NCBI GenBank assembly: GCA_005889135.1
Contig: VBEK01000127.1
Span: 1-48,100, forward strand
DNA length: 48,100 nt
Reading direction: 5' to 3'
From: Chloroflexota bacterium
Lineage (GTDB): Bacteria; Chloroflexota; Dormibacteria; Dormibacterales; Dormibacteraceae
The notes under the pieces are model-generated. The model was not told the origin of the DNA. It saw only the letters and a list, made by a program, of their open reading frames with translations, and made no database searches. Shown in pieces: positions 12,984 to 37,745 of the stretch; the first letter of the stretch is position 1; the number at the start of each line of letters is the position of its first letter. The position numbers and the translations under genes were made by a program.

Positions 12984-13853
12984 ATGGGACGCACTCCAAT
13001 CGTGCCGGACGCGCTGACTCGTGGACCGTTCACGCTTCACGAGGCGCGCCAGGAGGGCCTCGACCGATGGCACCTGGAGGGTCTGAGCTGGAGACGGATC
13101 GCTCGTGGGACCTACATGTGGGCGGGTCTCCAGGAGACTGTGATGCACAGGATCGCGGCAGCCCAACGGCGCCTCCCGCCCGCCGCCGTTTTCTCCGGCC
13201 TAACTGCTGCGTGGCTTCACTACATCGAGGTCCTGCCCTGCGATCTGATCGAGGCGACCGTCCCACCGGAGACAGCCCTGTACCGGCGATCGGGGATACG
13301 CATCCGCCGGGCAGCGTTGCCCGATGCCGACGTGGTCGTGCGGCGAGGCTTCCGCGCGACCGGCATCGTTCGCTCTCTTGCCGACATATGCGCCATCACG
13401 AGCCTGACGGACGGTGTTGTCGTCACGGACGCCGCCTTGCACTCCCAGCGTGTGAGGCTGTCGCAACTATCGGAATGGGCGGACAGGCATGCCGCCCGTC
13501 GTGGCATACGCAATTTCAGGCGAGTAATCGCGCTGGCCGAACCTGACACGGAATCGCCGATGGAATCGCGACTGCGCATGGTCCTCTTTCTCGGTGGCCT
13601 GCCCAGGCCGAAGGTGCAGGTGCCTATCTACGACACGAAGGGACGCTTCGTGGGGCGGCCGGATCTCTATTACGAGGAGGCGAGGCTGGGCATCGAGTTC
13701 GACGGCGGTGTGCACCGCGACACCTTGGTCGAGGATGACCACCGACAGAACCTGCTGCTCAACGCAGGTATACGGCTGCTCCGATTCACCGCCAGAGACG
13801 TGTTTCGAAACCCCGCCTCCGTAGTCGCCCAGGTTCGCGCGATGCTTGGCTAG
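12984..13853 (+). CDS. AbiEi-like / DUF559 protein with PD-(D/E)XK-type C-terminal domain
   Basis: A 289-aa protein. The N-terminal part (HEARQEGLDRWHLEGL, RIARGTYMW) resembles the winged-helix region of AbiEi-type antitoxin proteins; the C-terminal part (about 215-289) has the DUF559/Vsr-like pattern GRPDLYY, IEFDG, R-x-x-LL and LLRFTARDVF, whose Asp and Glu residues match a nuclease fold. This architecture is frequent in Actinobacteria; its role is not established, though a defence or toxin-antitoxin origin is often supposed. No partner toxin gene is adjacent. Base composition looks less GC-rich than its neighbours, which may mean transfer. An alternative TTG start exists at 12948 but would overlap the likely promoter. 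Confidence 0.75.
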   Translation: MGRTPIVPDALTRGPFTLHEARQEGLDRWHLEGLSWRRIARGTYMWAGLQETVMHRIAAAQRRLPPAAVFSGLTAAWLHYIEVLPCDLIEATVPPETALYRRSGIRIRRAALPDADVVVRRGFRATGIVRSLADICAITSLTDGVVVTDAALHSQRVRLSQLSEWADRHAARRGIRNFRRVIALAEPDTESPMESRLRMVLFLGGLPRPKVQVPIYDTKGRFVGRPDLYYEEARLGIEFDGGVHRDTLVEDDHRQNLLLNAGIRLLRFTARDVFRNPASVVAQVRAMLG

Positions 13854-19023: not shown

Positions 19024-20005
19024 GGCCACCGAGACTCCGCACGTCTCGGTCATCGTCCTCGTCTACAACGAGGTCGACAGCGTCGAGCCACTGCACCGCG
19101 AGCTGATGGGTGTGCTCGACGCGATCGGCACCTCTTTCGAGGTCCTGTACATCGACGATGGGAGCCGCGACGGCAGCAACGAGAAGCTGGGCCAGATCGC
19201 GGCGCGCGACGAGCGTGTGCGCGTCGTCAGCTTTCGCCGCAACTTCGGCCGGACGGCCGCGGTGCAGGCGGGGATCGATCACAGCCGGGGCGCGGTGCTC
19301 GTCTTCTTCGACGGCGACATGCAGAACGACCCGCACGACATCCCTCACCTGCTCGAGAAGATGGACGAGGGCTACGACGTCGCCAGCGGCTGGCGTCGAG
19401 CCAGGGCGGCGTCGCGGTCGCGTGCGCTTTTGTCGAGCATCGCGAACGGCGTGATGGCTCGGCTGACCGGGGTCGGCGTCAGCGATTTCGGCTGCACGCT
19501 GAAGGCGTTTCGACGTGAGGTGATCGAAGGCGTGAGGCTTGATGGCGAGATGCGCCGGCTGCTGCCGGTCTACGCCGCCGAGGCCGGCGCGCGCATCACG
19601 GAGCTCCCGGTCAACCACCGGCCGCGCACGTACGGAAAATCGAAGTACTCGCTGGCCGCCAGCTCGAGGGTTCTTCTGGACCTCGTGGCGGTCAAGCTGG
19701 TGGGCGGCTCGCCCCGACCGGTGTACTCGCTGGGGGTCGCTGCCGCCGGCGCGTGGTTGCTCGCCCTCGCGGCCGGGGTGGTCGTGGCCGTGCAGAGGGT
19801 GGTGCCGCCTTACGTGCACGTGCACGCCAACCTGCTGGTCGTCGCGGCCGTGGGGTTGGCGATCATCGGGGTCCAGCTCTTTCTCGCCGCGCTGACGGTC
19901 CAGCGCTCGGAACCGACGTACGTGGTGCGTGAGGTCATCGCCCGCCCTCCGCACCGCCAGCCCGGGCCGATGGAGAGGACCGCCGGCCGGGCCACCCTCC
20001 GTTAG
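18989..20005 (+). CDS. family 2 glycosyltransferase, dolichol/polyprenyl-phosphate sugar synthase type
   Basis: A 338-aa DPM1/GtrB-like enzyme, expected to move a sugar from a nucleotide donor to polyprenyl phosphate on the inner membrane face. GT2 motifs: VSVIVLVYNE, IDDGSRDGS, FDGDMQNDP (metal-binding DxD-like), FGCTLKAFRREV and NHRPRTYGKSKYS. Two C-terminal membrane helices lie at about 245-268 and 280-305. A -10-like CATAAT (18976-18981) ends 7 nt before the first ATG, which favours 18989; the second ATG of the duplication is possible. The TAG stop lies inside the first palindrome of array A. Confidence 0.88.
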   Translation: MARHARAMARHAATETPHVSVIVLVYNEVDSVEPLHRELMGVLDAIGTSFEVLYIDDGSRDGSNEKLGQIAARDERVRVVSFRRNFGRTAAVQAGIDHSRGAVLVFFDGDMQNDPHDIPHLLEKMDEGYDVASGWRRARAASRSRALLSSIANGVMARLTGVGVSDFGCTLKAFRREVIEGVRLDGEMRRLLPVYAAEAGARITELPVNHRPRTYGKSKYSLAASSRVLLDLVAVKLVGGSPRPVYSLGVAAAGAWLLALAAGVVVAVQRVVPPYVHVHANLLVVAAVGLAIIGVQLFLAALTVQRSEPTYVVREVIARPPHRQPGPMERTAGRATLR

Positions 20006-20142
20006 TCGCGACTATCCAGACATTTCTCACGCCAGAACCTGCGTTAGTCGCGACTATCGCGCGTTCTCGAGCGCGGAATGGGTGGATAGTCGCGACTATC
20101 GCGCGTCTTCGAGCGCGGAATGGGTGGATAGTCGCGACTATC
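20001..20142. repeat. palindromic repeat array A (4 units, 42-bp period)
   Basis: Four copies of the 16-bp palindrome GATAGTCGCGACTATC start at 20001, 20043, 20085 and 20127, each exactly 42 bp apart; the first two have GTTAG in place of GATAG. The 26-bp spacers 2 and 3 differ by two bases (GCGCGTTCTCGAGC versus GCGCGTCTTCGAGC, then the same end); spacer 1 is diverged. The array begins inside the stop codon of the glycosyltransferase gene. Confidence 0.92.
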
Positions 20143-20156
20143 CGTGGTCTTTCGCC

Positions 20157-20213
20157 CCCTCACCCCGACCCTCTCCCCTGACGGGGAGAGGGAGTTCTGG
20201 CCCCGGGTGAGGG
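20157..20213. repeat. nested inverted repeat (CCCTCTCCCC type)
   Basis: An inner perfect 10-bp stem (CCCTCTCCCC, loop TGAC, 20169-20192) sits inside an outer 9-bp inverted repeat (CCCTCACCC at 20157 and GGGTGAGGG at 20205). Elements of this wording are scattered in many GC-rich bacterial genomes and look like a REP/MITE-type sequence. It may act as a transcription barrier between the glycosyltransferase and the next gene. Within the 331-base gap 20006-20336 I see array A, this element and the promoter at 20234, and nothing else. Confidence 0.75.
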
Positions 20214-20233
20214 CCGTTGATCTACATACGACT

Positions 20234-20278
20234 CTTAACAGTTCCTTAAGAGGCGATCGAAAAGGTTCGGAGTAGCGT
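20234..20278 (+). promoter_or_regulatory. TTAACA-box promoter of the secreted protein/HD-GYP operon
   Basis: CTTAACAGTTCCTTAAG (20234-20250) is an inverted repeat of CTTAA/TTAAG with a 7-bp centre. TAGCGT (-10) lies at 20273-20278, an offset of 39 nt, the same spacing as in the promoter after leuS. The start would be near 20285, leaving a leader with a Shine-Dalgarno site. Confidence 0.45.
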
Positions 20279-20336
20279 TGTCGAACCGCTGGGGTTGGGG
20301 TTTAGATCCAGCGTTTTTTGGAGGGTAGGGAAGCAA

Positions 20337-20738
20337 GTGAAGAGGGTGGTGGTGGCCGCCGCACTGGCGGCAGGGATCCTGTTGTGCTCGCCCACGTCTG
20401 CCGGCGCTTGGGCCACGTACTGCGACTGGGACCCGCTGGTCCTGATCGTGACGCCCGGCGGACACGTCGTCCCGGTCTACGACAGCGTCTGGACGGCCTC
20501 GCCCCTCTCCCTCGGGCTGCCCCTGGAGAGCTACACGGCGACCCGCGTCTACGATCCCGCGGGCCATCCCCAGACGGCGGTCGACATGAAGATCTACACG
20601 CCGACCGGTCTGCTGCTCCGTTACAAGGTGCATGACATGGTGACCAGCGGCCTGTTGGGCTCGGGCACCGTCTATGCCCAGGCCGACGGCTGGAGCGGCC
20701 AGTCCGTCCACCTCAGGTTCACCCTCTCCACGCCCTAG
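20337..20738 (+). CDS. small secreted protein of unknown function
   Basis: A 133-aa protein with a clear Sec signal peptide (KRVVVAAALAAGILLCSPTSAGAWA, cleavage after AGA/AWA) and a mature part of about 105 residues that alternates polar and hydrophobic residues, suggesting a beta-sandwich. It has a single mature Cys (YCDWD). No family recognised. The GTG start is chosen because AGGGA lies about 6 nt upstream and the charged n-region begins there. The HD-GYP gene follows after 5 bp, so they probably share the TTAACA-box promoter. Confidence 0.7.
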   Translation: MKRVVVAAALAAGILLCSPTSAGAWATYCDWDPLVLIVTPGGHVVPVYDSVWTASPLSLGLPLESYTATRVYDPAGHPQTAVDMKIYTPTGLLLRYKVHDMVTSGLLGSGTVYAQADGWSGQSVHLRFTLSTP

Positions 20739-28840: not shown

Positions 28841-29902
28841 TCAGGCCGGTTGTTCGAAGGCCGACTTGATGGCGGCCTCGCCGGCCGCGGCCGTGAACTC
28901 CATCACCTGGCGCAGGCTCTGAGCGACGTCCGGGTCCTGGGGCTCCTCCCAGAGAAACGAGCGAGCTACCTTTGTCCGCCCTTCCCCCTCCTCGCTCAGG
29001 CGTGTCGTGATGTACATCGTCGTGGGCTGGTCCGCGATCAGGGTCAGCTCCCGGCCCGGCTCGAGATTCACGACGCGCATGCTGACGACGCTTCCGCCGT
29101 GGTGGCAGTGGAACTCGGCGCCGAGGTCTTCGCCGCGCGCGCCCGCGACCGCCTCCACATCGTCGGAGATGAGATAGCGCTCCATGACCTTGGGCTCGAG
29201 GAGGCGTTTGTAGATGCTCTCCGCGCTCGCCTCGACGACGACCTCGGAGTTCACGATCGCCTCCTCTGGCAGGACCCGCTTGCGCTCCGTCGCCTGAGCC
29301 AGGTCCCAGAGGTAGCCGATCTCCTGGTAACCGCCGTGGATGGCGCCGACGTCGAACTCTTCGGAGTGCGGGGTGAAGCGGGCGCGGGTCTCGTCAGGGA
29401 GACGCTCGAGCACGGCGTCGGTGACGAGCAGGTACTCCTTCGAGGGCACCTTGTTCTTGAGCAGGCGGTGGGGAACGATCACGTCCGCACCGTGCAGCTG
29501 CTCGACGTTGCCCAGCCGCTGGCGCGAGAACTTGCCGTGGTGGACGACGAACTTCAGCTTGAGGACGCTGATCCGCGCGCACGCGTTGCAGGGGCAGGTG
29601 GTCACCGCCTGCATGTCGCGGAGGCGGCGATGAAAGGCGACGAACGTGCCCTCGAGGGCCTTGATGACGTCGGGCGTGGAGAGGCCGGTGATGAAGAGGA
29701 TGGCGTCGCCCTCGACCTGGGAGACGTCCATGCGGCCCTGGAGGCTGCGCACGACGGTGTCGAGGAGCTCGTGCAGGATCGACCAGCTGTGGTCGACCTC
29801 GGTCTGCTGGACGAAGGCCGAGTAGCCGGAGATGTCGGCGAGAACGAGCGCGCCTTCCTGGAGGCCCGCGAACAGCTCGGGGCGGTCGCTCTGGCTCGCC
29901 AT
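28841..29902 (-). CDS. DUF2652 cyclase-like domain fused to an SRPBCC domain
   Basis: A 353-aa soluble protein. Residues 15-200 resemble the class III nucleotidyl cyclase fold (LVLADISGYSAFV with a metal-type Asp; VEGDAILFI with the second), matching DUF2652; a Cys cluster TCPCNACARI follows. From about 220 an SRPBCC/START-like lipid-binding domain begins (VVVEASAESIYKRLLEP, MRVVNLEPGRELTLI). Whether it makes a cyclic nucleotide is unknown; substrate-specifying residues could not be judged. A -10-like GATAAT (29909-29914) ends 6 nt before the ATG. Confidence 0.78.
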   Translation of the reverse strand: MASQSDRPELFAGLQEGALVLADISGYSAFVQQTEVDHSWSILHELLDTVVRSLQGRMDVSQVEGDAILFITGLSTPDVIKALEGTFVAFHRRLRDMQAVTTCPCNACARISVLKLKFVVHHGKFSRQRLGNVEQLHGADVIVPHRLLKNKVPSKEYLLVTDAVLERLPDETRARFTPHSEEFDVGAIHGGYQEIGYLWDLAQATERKRVLPEEAIVNSEVVVEASAESIYKRLLEPKVMERYLISDDVEAVAGARGEDLGAEFHCHHGGSVVSMRVVNLEPGRELTLIADQPTTMYITTRLSEEGEGRTKVARSFLWEEPQDPDVAQSLRQVMEFTAAAGEAAIKSAFEQPA

Positions 29903-29954
29903 CGCCGGATTATCGCCTCCCGCGATTGGCGATAGTCATACTGGGTTGCGGCTG

Positions 29955-30734
29955 ATGGGTGACGTGTTGAGCCTGGCGCGGCGCCGGCCGTTCACGTCCG
30001 CGGTGATCCTGCTGATCGTCGCCGTGTATGTGGTCGAGATCGCGCAGAGCCGGCCGGCCTTCTGGCTCGAAGGCAAGGGAGACCTTCCCGACATCGCCGC
30101 GTTGGGCGTCGTCTGGACGCCGGCGATCGGCGACGGGGAGTGGTGGCGGCTGATCACGGCCTCGTCCCTCCACGCAGGCCTCCTCCACATCGCCCTGAAC
30201 TGCTACGCGCTCGTGGTCATCGGGGGCGCGGCGGAGGCGCGCTTCCGCTGGTGGCGGACCGCGGTCATCTTCCTCGTGGCGGCGGTCGGCGGCAACATCG
30301 CCGCGGCGGCGATCCAGCCCGGGGCTGCGTCGCTGGGCGCGTCGGGCGGGGTCATGGGCTTGGCGGGTGCGGTGGTGGTCGGCGCGGTGTGGTCCGGCGA
30401 AGGGCTGGCGCGAAGCCAGTGGGTCATCGGGGCGATCATCGCCACGGTCGCCTTCGGCTTCATCAACCCGGGGATCTCGAACGCCGCCCACATCGGGGGG
30501 CTCATCGCGGGAGGCGCGGTCTCGCTGCCGCTGGGCTTGACGGCGCGGTTGCGAAGGACGCAGCGGCCAGCCCCGGCCCCGAAGACGCAGGCGAGGGGGA
30601 CAGCTCCGGGGAGGGCTACGGCGACGGGGATGAATCCGCGGCAGGTGGAGTTCCAGCGGCGGATCGACGCGGCGATGGCCAAGGCGAGGGCCGAGCGGGA
30701 GGAGGACGCACGTCGTGCCAGCTCAGGTGAGTGA
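29955..30734 (+). CDS. rhomboid family intramembrane serine protease
   Basis: A 259-aa protein with six membrane helices. Rhomboid features are complete: H-A-G-L-L-H-I-A-L-N-C-Y in helix 2, the GASG motif with catalytic Ser130, and NAAHIGGLIAG with catalytic His179. The C-terminal tail from about 205 is Pro/Ala-rich, then a charged helix. The natural substrate is unknown. The ATG at 29955 is preceded by CATACT (29937-29942); a TTG at 29946 is an alternative. Its TGA lies in the first of two imperfect direct repeats flanking array B. Confidence 0.87.
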   Translation: MGDVLSLARRRPFTSAVILLIVAVYVVEIAQSRPAFWLEGKGDLPDIAALGVVWTPAIGDGEWWRLITASSLHAGLLHIALNCYALVVIGGAAEARFRWWRTAVIFLVAAVGGNIAAAAIQPGAASLGASGGVMGLAGAVVVGAVWSGEGLARSQWVIGAIIATVAFGFINPGISNAAHIGGLIAGGAVSLPLGLTARLRRTQRPAPAPKTQARGTAPGRATATGMNPRQVEFQRRIDAAMAKARAEREEDARRASSGE

Positions 30735-30966
30735 CGCCGCCTCCACTGGCACAATCGCGCGATAGTCGCGACTATCGACGTTCTCGTGCGTCGCTACCGG
30801 TGGATAGTCGCGACTATCGACGTTCTTGCGCGTCGCTACCGGTGGATAGTCGCGACTATCGACGTTCTTGTGCGTCGCTACCGGTGGATAGTTGCGACTA
30901 TCGACGCATTTGCGATCCCTGAATAGTCGCGCCGATTCAGGAGAGTGACACCGCCACCAACGGAAC
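30724..30966. repeat. imperfect 29-bp direct repeats flanking array B
   Basis: The segment beginning CAGGTGAGTGACGCCGCC at 30724 and the one beginning CAGGAGAGTGACACCGCC at 30938 match at 23 of 29 positions. The left copy contains the rhomboid stop codon. They enclose the array, as would be left by an old insertion or segmental duplication. Confidence 0.5.
30761..30902. repeat. palindromic repeat array B (4 units, 42-bp period)
   Basis: Four copies of GATAGTCGCGACTATC start at 30761, 30803, 30845 and 30887, exactly 42 bp apart; the last has GTTGCG in place of GTCGCG. The 26-bp spacers (GACGTTCT..., ending CTACCGGTG) differ from each other at one or two positions. A decayed half-copy (AATAGTCGCG) follows at about 30922. 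The palindrome and period equal those of array A, 10.6 kb away. The rest of 30735-31008 holds the flanking direct repeats and nothing else that I recognise. Confidence 0.92.
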
Positions 30967-31008: not shown

Positions 31009-31284
31009 CTACGCGTGCTCCTGGTCGTGTGGCTGATCGAGCAGCTCGGCGACGAACTCGCGGCCGCCCGGATTCTGCTCAATCACTTTGGCGAGCCGGC
31101 CAGGCGGGTCCTTGCGAAGCTCTTCGGCCAGCAGTTCCTGCAGCGCCGGATCGATCTTCGCGAGGTTGCCGGGGTTGAGGTCGCGCCTGACGGTGCGCTT
31201 CGCGGCTTTGATCGCAAGCCATGTCCCGCCGGCCACGAAAAGGACTGGAAAGCCAAAGACGATGACCAGGATCCAGTCGCTCAT
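31009..31284 (-). CDS. small membrane protein of unknown function
   Basis: A 91-aa protein with one N-terminal helix (WILVIVFGFPVLFVAGGTWL), a basic segment (KAAKRTVRRDL) and a cytoplasmic charged region LAEELRKDPPGRLAKVIEQN. Not recognised as a family. A -10-like TATGCT (on this strand, 31294-31299) ends 9 nt before the ATG, so it is probably leaderless. The same sequence read on the other strand gives CATAAC, a possible back-to-back -10. Confidence 0.6.
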   Translation of the reverse strand: MSDWILVIVFGFPVLFVAGGTWLAIKAAKRTVRRDLNPGNLAKIDPALQELLAEELRKDPPGRLAKVIEQNPGGREFVAELLDQPHDQEHA

Positions 31285-31518: not shown

Positions 31519-31632
31519 ACAGTCGTCGCACCGAGCGCAGAGAGCCGAGTATAAACATCCCCACGAAACCGGAGCCTTCGGCGTGAAGTCGCGGGGGCCC
31601 GCGCCAAAGGCGCTCCTATACTCGCCTTCCTG

Positions 31633-34968: not shown

Positions 34969-36102
34969 ATGTACTTCACCGACGCCCACGAGGAGCTGCG
35001 GCTGCACATCCGCAAGTTCCTCGAGAAGGAGGTGCAGCCGCACCTCGAGGAGTGGGAGGAAAAAACCTTCCCCGACTCGATCTTCCGCCGCTTCGGCGAG
35101 CTCGGCTTCCTGGGCCTCCGCTACCCGCCGGAGTACGGCGGGCAGGGCGGCGACTACTTCTCGGCGGTGGTGCTGTCGGAGGAGATGGCCCGGGTCGGGA
35201 GCGGAGGCCTGGGCATGGCCGTCGCGGTCCAGGCCGAGATGGCCACCCCGCCCGTCTTCAAGTTCGGCACCGAGGAGCAGAAGCGCCGCTGGCTCGTGCC
35301 CGCAATCCGGGGCGAGCAGATCGCCGCCCTGGCCATCACCGAGCCGGACGCGGGCTCCGACGTGGCGGGCATCACCACGGTCGCACACCGCTTCGGCGAC
35401 GAGTTCATCGTCAACGGCCGCAAGATCTTCATCACCAACGGGGCCCGATGCGACTGGGCGCTGGTCGTGACGAAGACCGACCGCGACCGCGGTCACTCGG
35501 GCTTCAACCTGCTGCTGATCGAGAAGGGCACCAAAGGGTTCGAGGTCACGCGCACGCTGCAGAAGCTCGGCATGCACTCCTCCGACACCGCCGAGCTCCT
35601 CTTCGAGGATTGCCACGTCCCGGCCGGCAACCTGATCGGCGAGGAGGGGGAGGGCTTCAAGAACCTCATGTGGGAGCTTCAGGGCGAGCGCATGATCGCG
35701 GCCGCCGGCGCGATCGCCGGGGCCCAGCGCGTCTTCGAATACACGATGGAGTACGCACGCAACCGCAAGGCGTTCGGCAAGCCGATCTCCGACTTCCAGG
35801 TGATCAAGCACCGCCTCGTCGACATGGGGACGAAGGTCGCCGCGGTGCAGGCGTTCGTCTACCAGACGGCGCAGCAGTGGGACCGCGGCGAGTACCCGGT
35901 GCGCGAGATCTCGCAGGCCAAGCTGCTGGCCACCCAGGTGGCGTGCGACGTCGCGGACGACGCCATTCAAATTCTCGGCGGCCACGGCTACATGCGCGAG
36001 TTTCCCGTCGAGCGCGCCTGGCGCGACGCCCGTCTCGCGCGCATCGGCGCGGGGACGGACGAGATCATGAAAGAGATCATCGCCAAGTCCTACGGAATTT
36101 GA
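34969..36102 (+). CDS. acyl-CoA dehydrogenase
   Basis: A 377-aa FAD-dependent dehydrogenase of the standard ACAD fold: ALAITEPDAGSDVAGITT (FAD/substrate loop), GRKIFITNGARCDWALV, RKAFGKPISDFQ, and ILGGHGYMREFPVERAWRDAR. The place of the usual C-terminal catalytic Glu reads IGAGTDEI, without Glu in the MCAD position; a Glu in ELQGERMIAAAGAI fits the alternative site used by isovaleryl-CoA and long-chain enzymes. Substrate unknown. A -10-like TACACT (34953-34958) ends 10 nt before the ATG. The next gene starts on a TTG overlapping its TGA. Confidence 0.92.
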   Translation: MYFTDAHEELRLHIRKFLEKEVQPHLEEWEEKTFPDSIFRRFGELGFLGLRYPPEYGGQGGDYFSAVVLSEEMARVGSGGLGMAVAVQAEMATPPVFKFGTEEQKRRWLVPAIRGEQIAALAITEPDAGSDVAGITTVAHRFGDEFIVNGRKIFITNGARCDWALVVTKTDRDRGHSGFNLLLIEKGTKGFEVTRTLQKLGMHSSDTAELLFEDCHVPAGNLIGEEGEGFKNLMWELQGERMIAAAGAIAGAQRVFEYTMEYARNRKAFGKPISDFQVIKHRLVDMGTKVAAVQAFVYQTAQQWDRGEYPVREISQAKLLATQVACDVADDAIQILGGHGYMREFPVERAWRDARLARIGAGTDEIMKEIIAKSYGI

Positions 36103-37745
36103 CCGCCGAGCCGGTCCTGTTCGCCGGATGCAAGCCCGAGGTGGCGGCCTTTGGGGAGCGCATCCTCGCCGTCGGTCCAGGCGCGCGCGCGGCGGCCGGG
36201 CGGAAGGCCGAGGTCGTGCGCCTGAGCGGCGAGGTGTGGCCGGGCCTGATCGACTCGCATATCCACCTCGAGGGCCTGGCCGACCGCAAGCTGACCGTCG
36301 ATCTCAACGGCAGCGCCAGCCTCGACGAGGCGCTGCGGCGCGTGAAGGAGCGCTCGAAGTCGCTGCCAAGGGACGCGTGGGTCGTGGGCGCCGGTTGGTA
36401 CAACGACGGCTGGCCTGACGCGTCCTTCCCCTCGCGGCGGCGGCTCGACGCCGCGGCGGGCGGACGTCCCGCCTATCTGCGGCGGAAGGACGGGCACTCG
36501 GCGTGGGTTTCGACGGAGGCGCTGCGCATGGCGGGCGTCGAACGAGGCGCCGCGGACCCTTCCGGCGGAACCATCGACCGCGACGCCGAGCGCGAGCCGA
36601 CAGGCATCCTGCGCGAGACGGCGATGCAGCTCGTCTTCCGCCTGGTGCCGCGCGAGACGGACGACGAGTTGGACTCGGCCATGGGCGAAGTGCTCGCCGA
36701 CCTCGCGCGGCTCGGGCTGACCGGCGTGCACACGATGGACAGCGCGCGAGGGCTCGCGTCGCTGCAGCGCCTGCACGCCAAAGAGCTGCTGCCGGTGCGC
36801 GTGACCTACAACCTCCCGCTCGCCGACCTGGCGCACGCCGAGCGCATCGGCATCCGCTCGGGATGGGGCGACGGGTGGCTGCGGATCTGGGGAGTGAAGG
36901 CGTTCGTCGACGGCTCGCTGGGGAGCCGTACGGCCGAGATGCTCGATGGCTCGGGGACGGCGCGACTGGCGCAGCCCGAGCTCGTCGACATGATCGAGCG
37001 CTGCGCCCGCGCCGAGCTGAACGTGTGCCTGCACGCCATCGGCGACGGCGCAGTCCGCCGCGCGATCGACGCACTGGCGCCGCACAAAGACGCGTGGCGG
37101 AGCTGGCGGCCGCGCATCGAGCACGCGCAGTGCGTCAACCCCAAAGACATGCCGCGTATGGCTCGCGCCGGCGTGATCGCCTCCATGCAGCCGATCCACG
37201 CCGTCGCCGACCGCGAGCTCGCGGATGCGCTGTGGCCGGCGGTCACGCAGCACGCGTACGCGTGGCGCGCCCGGCGGCCGCGCATCGAGCACGCGCAGTG
37301 CGTCAACCCCAAAGACATGCCGCGTATGGCTCGCGCCGGCGTGATCGCCTCCATGCAGCCGATCCACGCCGTCGCCGACCGCGAGCTCGCGGATGCGCTG
37401 TGGCCGGCGGTCACGCAGCACGCGTACGCGTGGCGCGCCCTCGAGCGCGCGGGTGTGCGGCTGGCATTCGGCTCGGACGCGCCGGTGGAGACGGCCGACC
37501 CGCTTGCCGGGATCGAGGCCGCGACCACCTGGCGCCGGCAGGCGAAGTGGCATCCCGACCTCGCCCTGACGCGCGCGGCGGCGCTGCGGGCCTACACCTC
37601 AGGGGCGGCTTACGCGGCCGGCATGGAGGACGAGGTTGGGGCGTTGCGGCCGGGAAGGATGTGCGACCTGACCGTGGTCGACGCCGGCAAGGTCGTCGCC
37701 ACCGTCGCCGGCGGCAGGGTCACGTGGCGGCGAAAGCGCGCCTGA
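36099..37745 (+). CDS. amidohydrolase, YtcJ-like (Amidohydro_3), with internal duplication
   Basis: A 548-aa metal-dependent hydrolase. Ligand motifs: PGLIDSHIHLEG (HxH), GVKAFVDGSLGSRTAEM, LHAIGDGA, IEHAQ and FGSDAPVE. Related enzymes act on amides, imides or cyclic compounds; substrate unknown. The TTG start overlaps the ACAD stop (TTGA). A 56-residue block (from PRIEHAQ to the end of HAYAWRA) is present twice in tandem with identical DNA, doubling the metal-site IEHAQ strand; normal relatives have one. The protein may be misfolded or this may be an assembly artefact. The 3' end overlaps the convergent HIT gene by 26 bp. Confidence 0.85.
   Translation: MTAEPVLFAGCKPEVAAFGERILAVGPGARAAAGRKAEVVRLSGEVWPGLIDSHIHLEGLADRKLTVDLNGSASLDEALRRVKERSKSLPRDAWVVGAGWYNDGWPDASFPSRRRLDAAAGGRPAYLRRKDGHSAWVSTEALRMAGVERGAADPSGGTIDRDAEREPTGILRETAMQLVFRLVPRETDDELDSAMGEVLADLARLGLTGVHTMDSARGLASLQRLHAKELLPVRVTYNLPLADLAHAERIGIRSGWGDGWLRIWGVKAFVDGSLGSRTAEMLDGSGTARLAQPELVDMIERCARAELNVCLHAIGDGAVRRAIDALAPHKDAWRSWRPRIEHAQCVNPKDMPRMARAGVIASMQPIHAVADRELADALWPAVTQHAYAWRARRPRIEHAQCVNPKDMPRMARAGVIASMQPIHAVADRELADALWPAVTQHAYAWRALERAGVRLAFGSDAPVETADPLAGIEAATTWRRQAKWHPDLALTRAAALRAYTSGAAYAAGMEDEVGALRPGRMCDLTVVDAGKVVATVAGGRVTWRRKRA
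37105..37440 (+). repeat. perfect in-frame 168-bp tandem duplication inside the amidohydrolase gene
   Basis: Copy 1 (37105-37272) and copy 2 (37273-37440) are identical in all 168 bases, including synonymous positions, and keep the reading frame (56 codons). The bases just outside the repeat differ (T versus C before it), which fixes the borders. Confidence 0.95.

Follow-up and report, generated by a model that had tools for sequence, protein, structure and literature searches.

What is the short palindrome that recurs in 42-bp steps at two separate places of a single Chloroflexota contig, and how did it come to be there? The window, meaning the whole 48,100-nucleotide stretch that was analyzed, is contig C107 of a 2.95-Mb assembly in 221 contigs (genome G000, here the own genome). 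The first-pass annotation regarded its two arrays, A and B, as selected binding sites combined with local duplication of the repeat unit. The duplication and the conservation of the sites stand, but the arrays are not only host binding sites, because doublets of the same kind form both ends of an element that carries a nuclease gene. The palindromes resemble copied end sequences of a so far undescribed type of small mobile element, centered on the gene of a DNA-cutting enzyme, and most are scattered just behind host genes.

Palindrome arrays in the window

Array B had been described as four copies of one palindrome in 42-bp steps, which both a palindrome scan and TRF (30761-30906, period 42, 3.5 copies, 96% matches) bear out at the positions given in Table 1. 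The core, said to be identical throughout, is a perfect palindrome in three of the four copies and carries one mismatch in the fourth. As also described, the three spacers of array B are near-identical among themselves and unlike those of array A, and the decayed copy expected after the last unit could be located. Across the window, we observe 10 palindrome matches at up to 3 mismatches, against 0.71 expected and a maximum of 4 over 100 shuffles. CRISPR was rejected, as the array B spacers are near-identical and not unique and the only Rfam matches in the window are two tRNAs. Gene calls were made with our own simple finder, which missed the nuclease genes described below; for the rhomboid-family gene, Pfam was run on a longer ORF (29832-30734).

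Table 1. Coordinates of the repeat units and neighboring genes in the window
Feature	Position	Strand	Remark
Array B palindrome 1	30761..30776	.	core GATAGTCGCGACTATC
Array B spacer 1	30777..30802	.	26 bp
Array B palindrome 2	30803..30818	.	
Array B spacer 2	30819..30844	.	
Array B palindrome 3	30845..30860	.	
Array B spacer 3	30861..30886	.	
Array B palindrome 4	30887..30902	.	one mismatch, GATAGTTGCGACTATC
Decayed fifth palindrome of array B	30923..30936	.	2 mismatches in 14, offset 35
Array A	20001..20142	.	four palindromes, 42-bp steps
Rhomboid-family gene	29955..30734	+	3' end toward array B; start from our own gene finder
Predicted gene	31009..31284	-	convergent with the rhomboid gene across array B; in-house gene finder only
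Paralogous AbiEi-DUF559 nuclease gene	13002..13850	+	48% identical to the palindrome-flanked nuclease G000:C200

The gene ending at 20005 takes its TAG stop codon from the first palindrome of array A, and the first spacer of this array is of a different type from its second and third. In the retrieved orthologous stretches, not all of which cover the exact site, no palindrome at up to 2 mismatches corresponds to array A or B. In nine relatives, the aligned parts of the genes on either side of array A (window 20005-20337) are separated by approximately 3.5 to 10 kb, so DNA seems to have been lost here in the own genome, perhaps through recombination between arrays.

Other repeats are found in the window as well. 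Directly after array A (20156-20195) lies another dispersed hairpin-like repeat, of the type CCCTCACCCC..CTCTCCCC..GGGGAGAGGG, with many matches genus-wide; related hairpins fill one palindrome slot in other species. A sequence of about 44 bp (31557-31600), located upstream of a tRNA-Ala on the minus strand, has dozens of matches in genus genomes, mostly at 82-89%, and a 168-bp tandem repeat (37090-37440; 2.1 copies, 97% matches) is located inside the predicted gene 36099-37745.

A fixed spacing with variable spacers

The own genome contains 271 palindromes at up to 2 mismatches, and the reversed pattern is found 0 times. Besides the window, we sampled approximately 356 kb of this genome, nearly all of it around palindrome sites, and examined 35 of its arrays. 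Internal copies are mostly GATAGTCGCGACTAAC and the end copy is GATAGTCGCGACTATC (or its other strand), joined by 26 bp, with some arrays, array B among them, holding the symmetric form only. At own loci picked by a 14-mer only, 106 of 108 sites are paired at 41-43 bp (101 of them at exactly 42 bp). The same is true of all 24 sites of relatives at loci picked by a 16-mer only (23 at 42 bp and one at 41 bp), and both sets were fetched without regard to spacing. In the arrays examined, the palindrome and its 42-bp spacing are kept and the spacers vary between loci, as the first reading of the window had proposed. Its view that duplication of units in place makes the spacers of a locus alike is likewise supported, for example by L036, where a near-identical three-unit block of 126 bp is repeated.

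The center of the palindrome differs between genomes. Among 119 paired sites of the own genome, 113 have CGCG, 3 have CCGG, and 3 have another center, whereas the 145 paired sites of relatives, from loci that were mostly pattern-fetched, comprise 106 CCGG, 39 CGCG, and no other. Isolated nonsymmetric centers exist (G006:C146 and G011:C47). All that spacers have in common are two tracts, one of pyrimidines near positions 6-9 and one of purines near positions 18-21. By reading, the REP foot tags GTAG and CGTC are both absent from the consensus GATAGTCSSGACTATC, and CGTC is present in the partner variant CTTCGTCCGGAC.

Distribution across genomes

A loose doublet pattern matched 14 of 17 genomes of the genus and none of 93 other genomes of the class. 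The CCGG palindrome was found at up to 2 mismatches in 15 of the 17 genus genomes, and the two palindrome-free ones (G004 and G015) contain only more distant homologs of the nuclease. A still looser pattern in a 400-genome sample of the phylum yielded one further convincing doublet, in another genus of the same family (G017); the other matches beyond the genus look sporadic. Named contigs with doublets are from Chloroflexi MAGs (58 of 58 among the matches listed, G000 possibly not being among them), presumably of soil origin, since the sample names give depths in centimeters. The genomes are fragmented MAGs, with several doublets lying at contig ends.

A nuclease gene enclosed by palindrome doublets

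In five genomes, an ORF, with a broken frame in G001, lies between two doublets or arrays separated by about 1 kb. The encoded nuclease has approximately 300 residues, and three of the four intact copies are 59-74% identical to the first. Pfam detects DUF559 in all four (1e-8 to 8e-8) and AbiEi_1 above the cut-off in one, and PADLOC reports AbiEi in the two copies scanned (1e-15 and 9e-13). A class-wide search recovered one full-length copy in each of 10 genus genomes (E ≤ 8e-139; next full-length match, 2e-105), with broken or partial copies in others, several of them beside doublets (G003:C9 and G011:C14).

All 10 full-length copies, whose proteins we refer to as the P clade, have a doublet on both sides of the gene. 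The resulting element of about 1.1 kb (1054-1145 bp) consists of a palindrome, 26 bp, and a second palindrome, followed by the AbiEi-like/DUF559 gene and then again by a palindrome, 26 bp, and a palindrome. In two nuclease loci, the stop codon of the gene falls within a palindrome. The outer 58 bp of the element ends are 0.41-0.79 identical when inverted, those of G000, G009, and G006 being more alike in direct orientation. By flank homology, the ten genes represent four sites (G000 and G009; G007, G010, G012, G014, and G016; G005 and G006; G011). In the tree, the ten P-flanked proteins form one clade with support of 98/100, within which the two CGCG genomes are sisters (98/96). Four proteins were left out of this tree for stops, and the long branch of L322 is an artifact of reading this sequence on the wrong strand.

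A 45-row structure model reached a pLDDT of 91.4. Foldseek matched this predicted model to AbiEi (6y8q, E 6e-5, the sole match below 0.001) and to the I-Bth0305I catalytic domain (3r3p, probability 1.00, E 0.029, TM 0.79 of target). In sequence and modeled fold, the N-terminal half resembles the DNA-binding antitoxin AbiEi, and the DUF559 half, with its predicted catalytic fold, resembles the homing endonuclease I-Bth0305I. One report describes DUF559 as often present in Vsr-like PD-(D/E)XK endonucleases (PMC12907096).

Counting against the reading as an element, the full-length P-clade nuclease is missing in 5 of the 15 palindrome-bearing genomes. None was seen in G008 (95% complete, 83 sites) or G013 (63%, 55 sites), G001 carries a broken copy, and G003 and G002 hold fragments only. 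There are also genomes in which the gene is present yet sites are few (4 in G012, 9 in G005, and 11 in G014). Given those five genomes, and a site number that does not track gene presence, the palindromes need no nuclease to persist. Homologs were absent from the phages and viral contigs searched, and plasmids yielded six weak records, four of which were retrieved.

Related nucleases with other palindromes

We examined 41 other AbiEi-DUF559 loci (20 from the class-wide search, 20 further ones, and the window gene 13002-13850) for quartets, that is, doublets on both sides at 41-43 bp, at a score of at least 60, a threshold that we set. Nine of them have quartets of other palindromes, seven different ones in all, both in other genera (L322, L327, L337, L338, and L351) and in the same genus (L344, L350, L354, and L355, of which L350 is the weakest). 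As controls, six other offset sets were scored in these loci, together with 168 genes drawn from three genomes, and neither control gave a quartet. Among the ten P loci, one (L314) scores slightly below the threshold, even with a doublet on each side. In the remaining 32 of 41 loci, some of them at contig ends, no quartet was found, which also counts against the element; no quartet was detected around the window gene or in the 4 actinobacterial homologs retrieved out of 6.

A looser one-flank test placed 17 of 18 strong pairs among 82 nuclease flanks at 41-43 bp. The 240 control flanks gave 4 strong pairs, 3 of them at 42 bp, namely, the two arrays of the window and, in G018, a tandem pair. 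Since this spacing recurs among related nucleases whose palindromes differ, the enzyme seems to diverge together with its palindrome.

The G018 pair, of palindrome GGGGGACCTGTCCCCC at 42 bp, is intergenic (L379 1877-1934, G018:C1). In samples of 115-251 kb, the palindromes of G034, G018, and G023 are not dispersed. A second palindrome, of the CGAGTGCCGGCACTCG type, forms solo 42-bp pairs behind genes in G000 and G006 (L031 7697-7754 and L244 7665-7722), and the search matches include no nuclease gene at these two loci.

Placement behind genes, gain and loss

The 35 own arrays are located in 17 convergent and 14 tandem gaps, with 1 in a divergent gap, 1 inside a gene, and 2 at contig edges, whereas the background comprises 38 convergent, 146 tandem, and 53 divergent gaps (chi-square P = 3e-6). 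For 48 arrays of relatives, the corresponding numbers are 17 convergent, 24 tandem, 2 divergent, and 5 at contig edges, against a background of 21, 82, and 25 (P = 0.002). Where a 3' end faces the array, the stop codon lies within 30 nt of it in 26 of 31 own cases and 35 of 44 in relatives. This proximity is what would be expected of host-functional 3'-end sites (a transcription roadblock, an insulator, or sites of a nucleoid protein) kept by selection, the nuclease gene merely happening to lie inside one array. Doublets are indeed kept in the five genomes that lack the full-length nuclease, and one slot holds other hairpin-like repeats in other species.

The first-pass annotation had suggested comparing loci across related genomes. 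Nine of the 35 own arrays are alignable at both flanks in a retrieved relative locus, and six of these nine share the slot with a doublet. At such shared slots, both palindromes are retained and the best spacer identity (0.41) equals chance (0.40 for random spacers), in line with what had been anticipated and with host sites. However, most of the relative loci had been retrieved through their palindromes, which biases this comparison, and slots viewed free of this ascertainment are mostly empty or otherwise filled. We therefore regard purifying selection at orthologous slots as suggestive only and do not use it as proof.

Slots do change among related species. At position 5053 of L045, doublets with unrelated spacers are observed in G006, G008, G013, G010, and G000; seven other genomes (G004, G007, G011, G014, G016, G003, and G012) have other repeat-like, mostly hairpin-like sequences in their place, and G009, G005, and G015 have almost nothing there. 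Two in-frame palindrome units are inserted in the glutamate synthase ORF of the own genome (1441 residues; L033 6125-6182, G000:C90), adding about 29 codons in a loop, and are absent in all 14 relatives with a readable locus. Doublets whose spacers differ at only 2-4 of 26 positions occur in unrelated places, at three loci each in G003 and G008. In G006:C59, a doublet lies within a nuclease pseudogene of another clade, with the same 10 bp on both sides as a direct repeat. Across 113 arrays, direct repeats of at least 9 bp surround 9 (2.2 expected) and those of at least 10 bp surround 4 (0.8 expected), a weak excess. A CTAG/YTAR target duplication, prompted by one slot, was rejected, since the joint test was not significant (own, 5 versus 3.0 expected; relatives, 4 versus 2.8).

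Such emptied or exchanged slots speak against selected host sites, as do the two genus genomes without any palindrome, the two-sided flanking of the gene in all ten genomes with a full-length copy, and the recurrence of the same architecture with other palindromes. We consider this explanation unlikely.

A second alternative makes the AbiEi half a repressor, the doublets its operators, and the dispersed copies a regulon. According to PMC7319586, AbiEi proteins are autorepressors that bind paired inverted repeats, two of 23 bp in their own promoter, so one flank of the element could be an operator; in the five forward-read nuclease loci, a gap of 63-87 bp separates the matched start from the end of the upstream doublet or array. 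A regulon is nevertheless improbable, as divergent promoter gaps are avoided (1 of 35 own arrays versus 53 of 237 background gaps, and 2 of 48 versus 25 of 128 in relatives) and a doublet is also located downstream of the nuclease gene.

Bidirectional terminators or mRNA stabilizers of the REP kind, acting at the RNA level, appear very improbable. In their favor, array B RNA folds 8.4 standard deviations below shuffles, which palindromes yield for free, spacers carry a T-rich tract on the side of the preceding palindrome and an A-rich one toward the following, and in relatives pairing of the two bases next to each palindrome slightly exceeds that in shuffles. Against them, own flanks show no excess pairing and rather a deficit, mixed CGCG/CCGG doublets are unable to pair fully with each other, and no terminator-like site was called near array B. 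An intrinsic terminator was rejected on the flank complementarity, negative in the own genome with the slight excess in relatives, and on the missing call. Integron attC sites were dropped on inspection against their core motifs.

A proposed nuclease-based mobile element

We conclude that a nuclease-based mobile element probably has the doublets as its ends, that the 42-bp arrays are probably non-autonomous, REPIN-like copies of these ends, and that the nuclease is the candidate agent for moving the doublets. The distance of 42 bp corresponds to four helical turns of DNA. The AbiEi half would bind the palindromes on one face of the DNA, and two bound palindromes would make one functional end. 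The nuclease half would cut DNA and thereby drive insertion, perhaps duplicating roughly 9-15 bp of the target. Behind genes, where they do the least harm, doublets mobilized in trans may accumulate, and arrays would grow by tandem duplication of the 42-bp unit.

More tentatively, these elements could represent a class of transposable element outside the DDE, tyrosine, serine, and HUH types, in which a homing-type nuclease is fused to an AbiEi domain, palindrome pairs four helical turns apart serve as mobile ends, each enzyme lineage has its own palindrome, and non-autonomous doublets and arrays spread through host 3' ends. The titles and abstract openings found by searches of the open literature (subscription papers and bioRxiv being outside this scope) contain no account of DUF559 genes flanked by palindromes, and the palindrome sequence itself gave a single hit there, 12 bases long, in a paper on an unrelated subject.

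Bacteria commonly carry short interspersed palindromes, and to our knowledge their engine is usually unknown outside RAYT-linked families. Here, a repeat and a candidate enzyme share their location in ten genomes, and the same spacing returns with different palindromes in other genera, which makes the question of what moves orphan palindromes directly testable. In addition, the enzyme-palindrome pairs offer a natural series from which DNA recognition by the AbiEi fold could be read, and a possible function emerges for part of the little-studied DUF559 family.

Comparison with known systems

I-Bth0305I is a homing endonuclease of the EDxHD class, and the predicted catalytic half of the enzyme described here matches its catalytic domain. 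It differs from I-Bth0305I-like homing endonucleases in being fused to an AbiEi-like domain, in the doublets on both sides of its gene, and in the dispersed doublets without a gene. BOX, STAR, and Rickettsia palindromic elements are likewise short interspersed repeats, some of them variable in unit number or in-frame in genes; we know of no nuclease gene linked to them.

With the AbiE type IV toxin-antitoxin systems, whose AbiEi binds paired inverted repeats (PMC7319586), the enzyme shares an AbiEi-like N-terminal half; unlike in AbiE, its second half is a nuclease domain. The four intact elements inspected hold, inside their approximately 1.1 kb, one long ORF each, compared with the additional AbiEii/DUF1814 toxin gene of AbiE.

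Closest in logic are the REPINs and REPtrons. As described in PMC3116915 and PMC3733652, REPINs are extragenic doublets of 16-mers at a fixed spacing with less conserved spacers, form tandem clusters, and include repeats that flank the enzyme gene, all of which is shared with the palindromes described here. RAYT tyrosine transposases move REPINs, whereas the candidate enzyme here is the AbiEi-DUF559 nuclease; a RAYT/Y1 transposase was rejected as the mover, with PF01797 found in 0 of the 17 genus genomes (incomplete assemblies), whereas the control search gave matches in 5 of 14. Unlike in REPINs, each 16-mer here is a perfect palindrome by itself.
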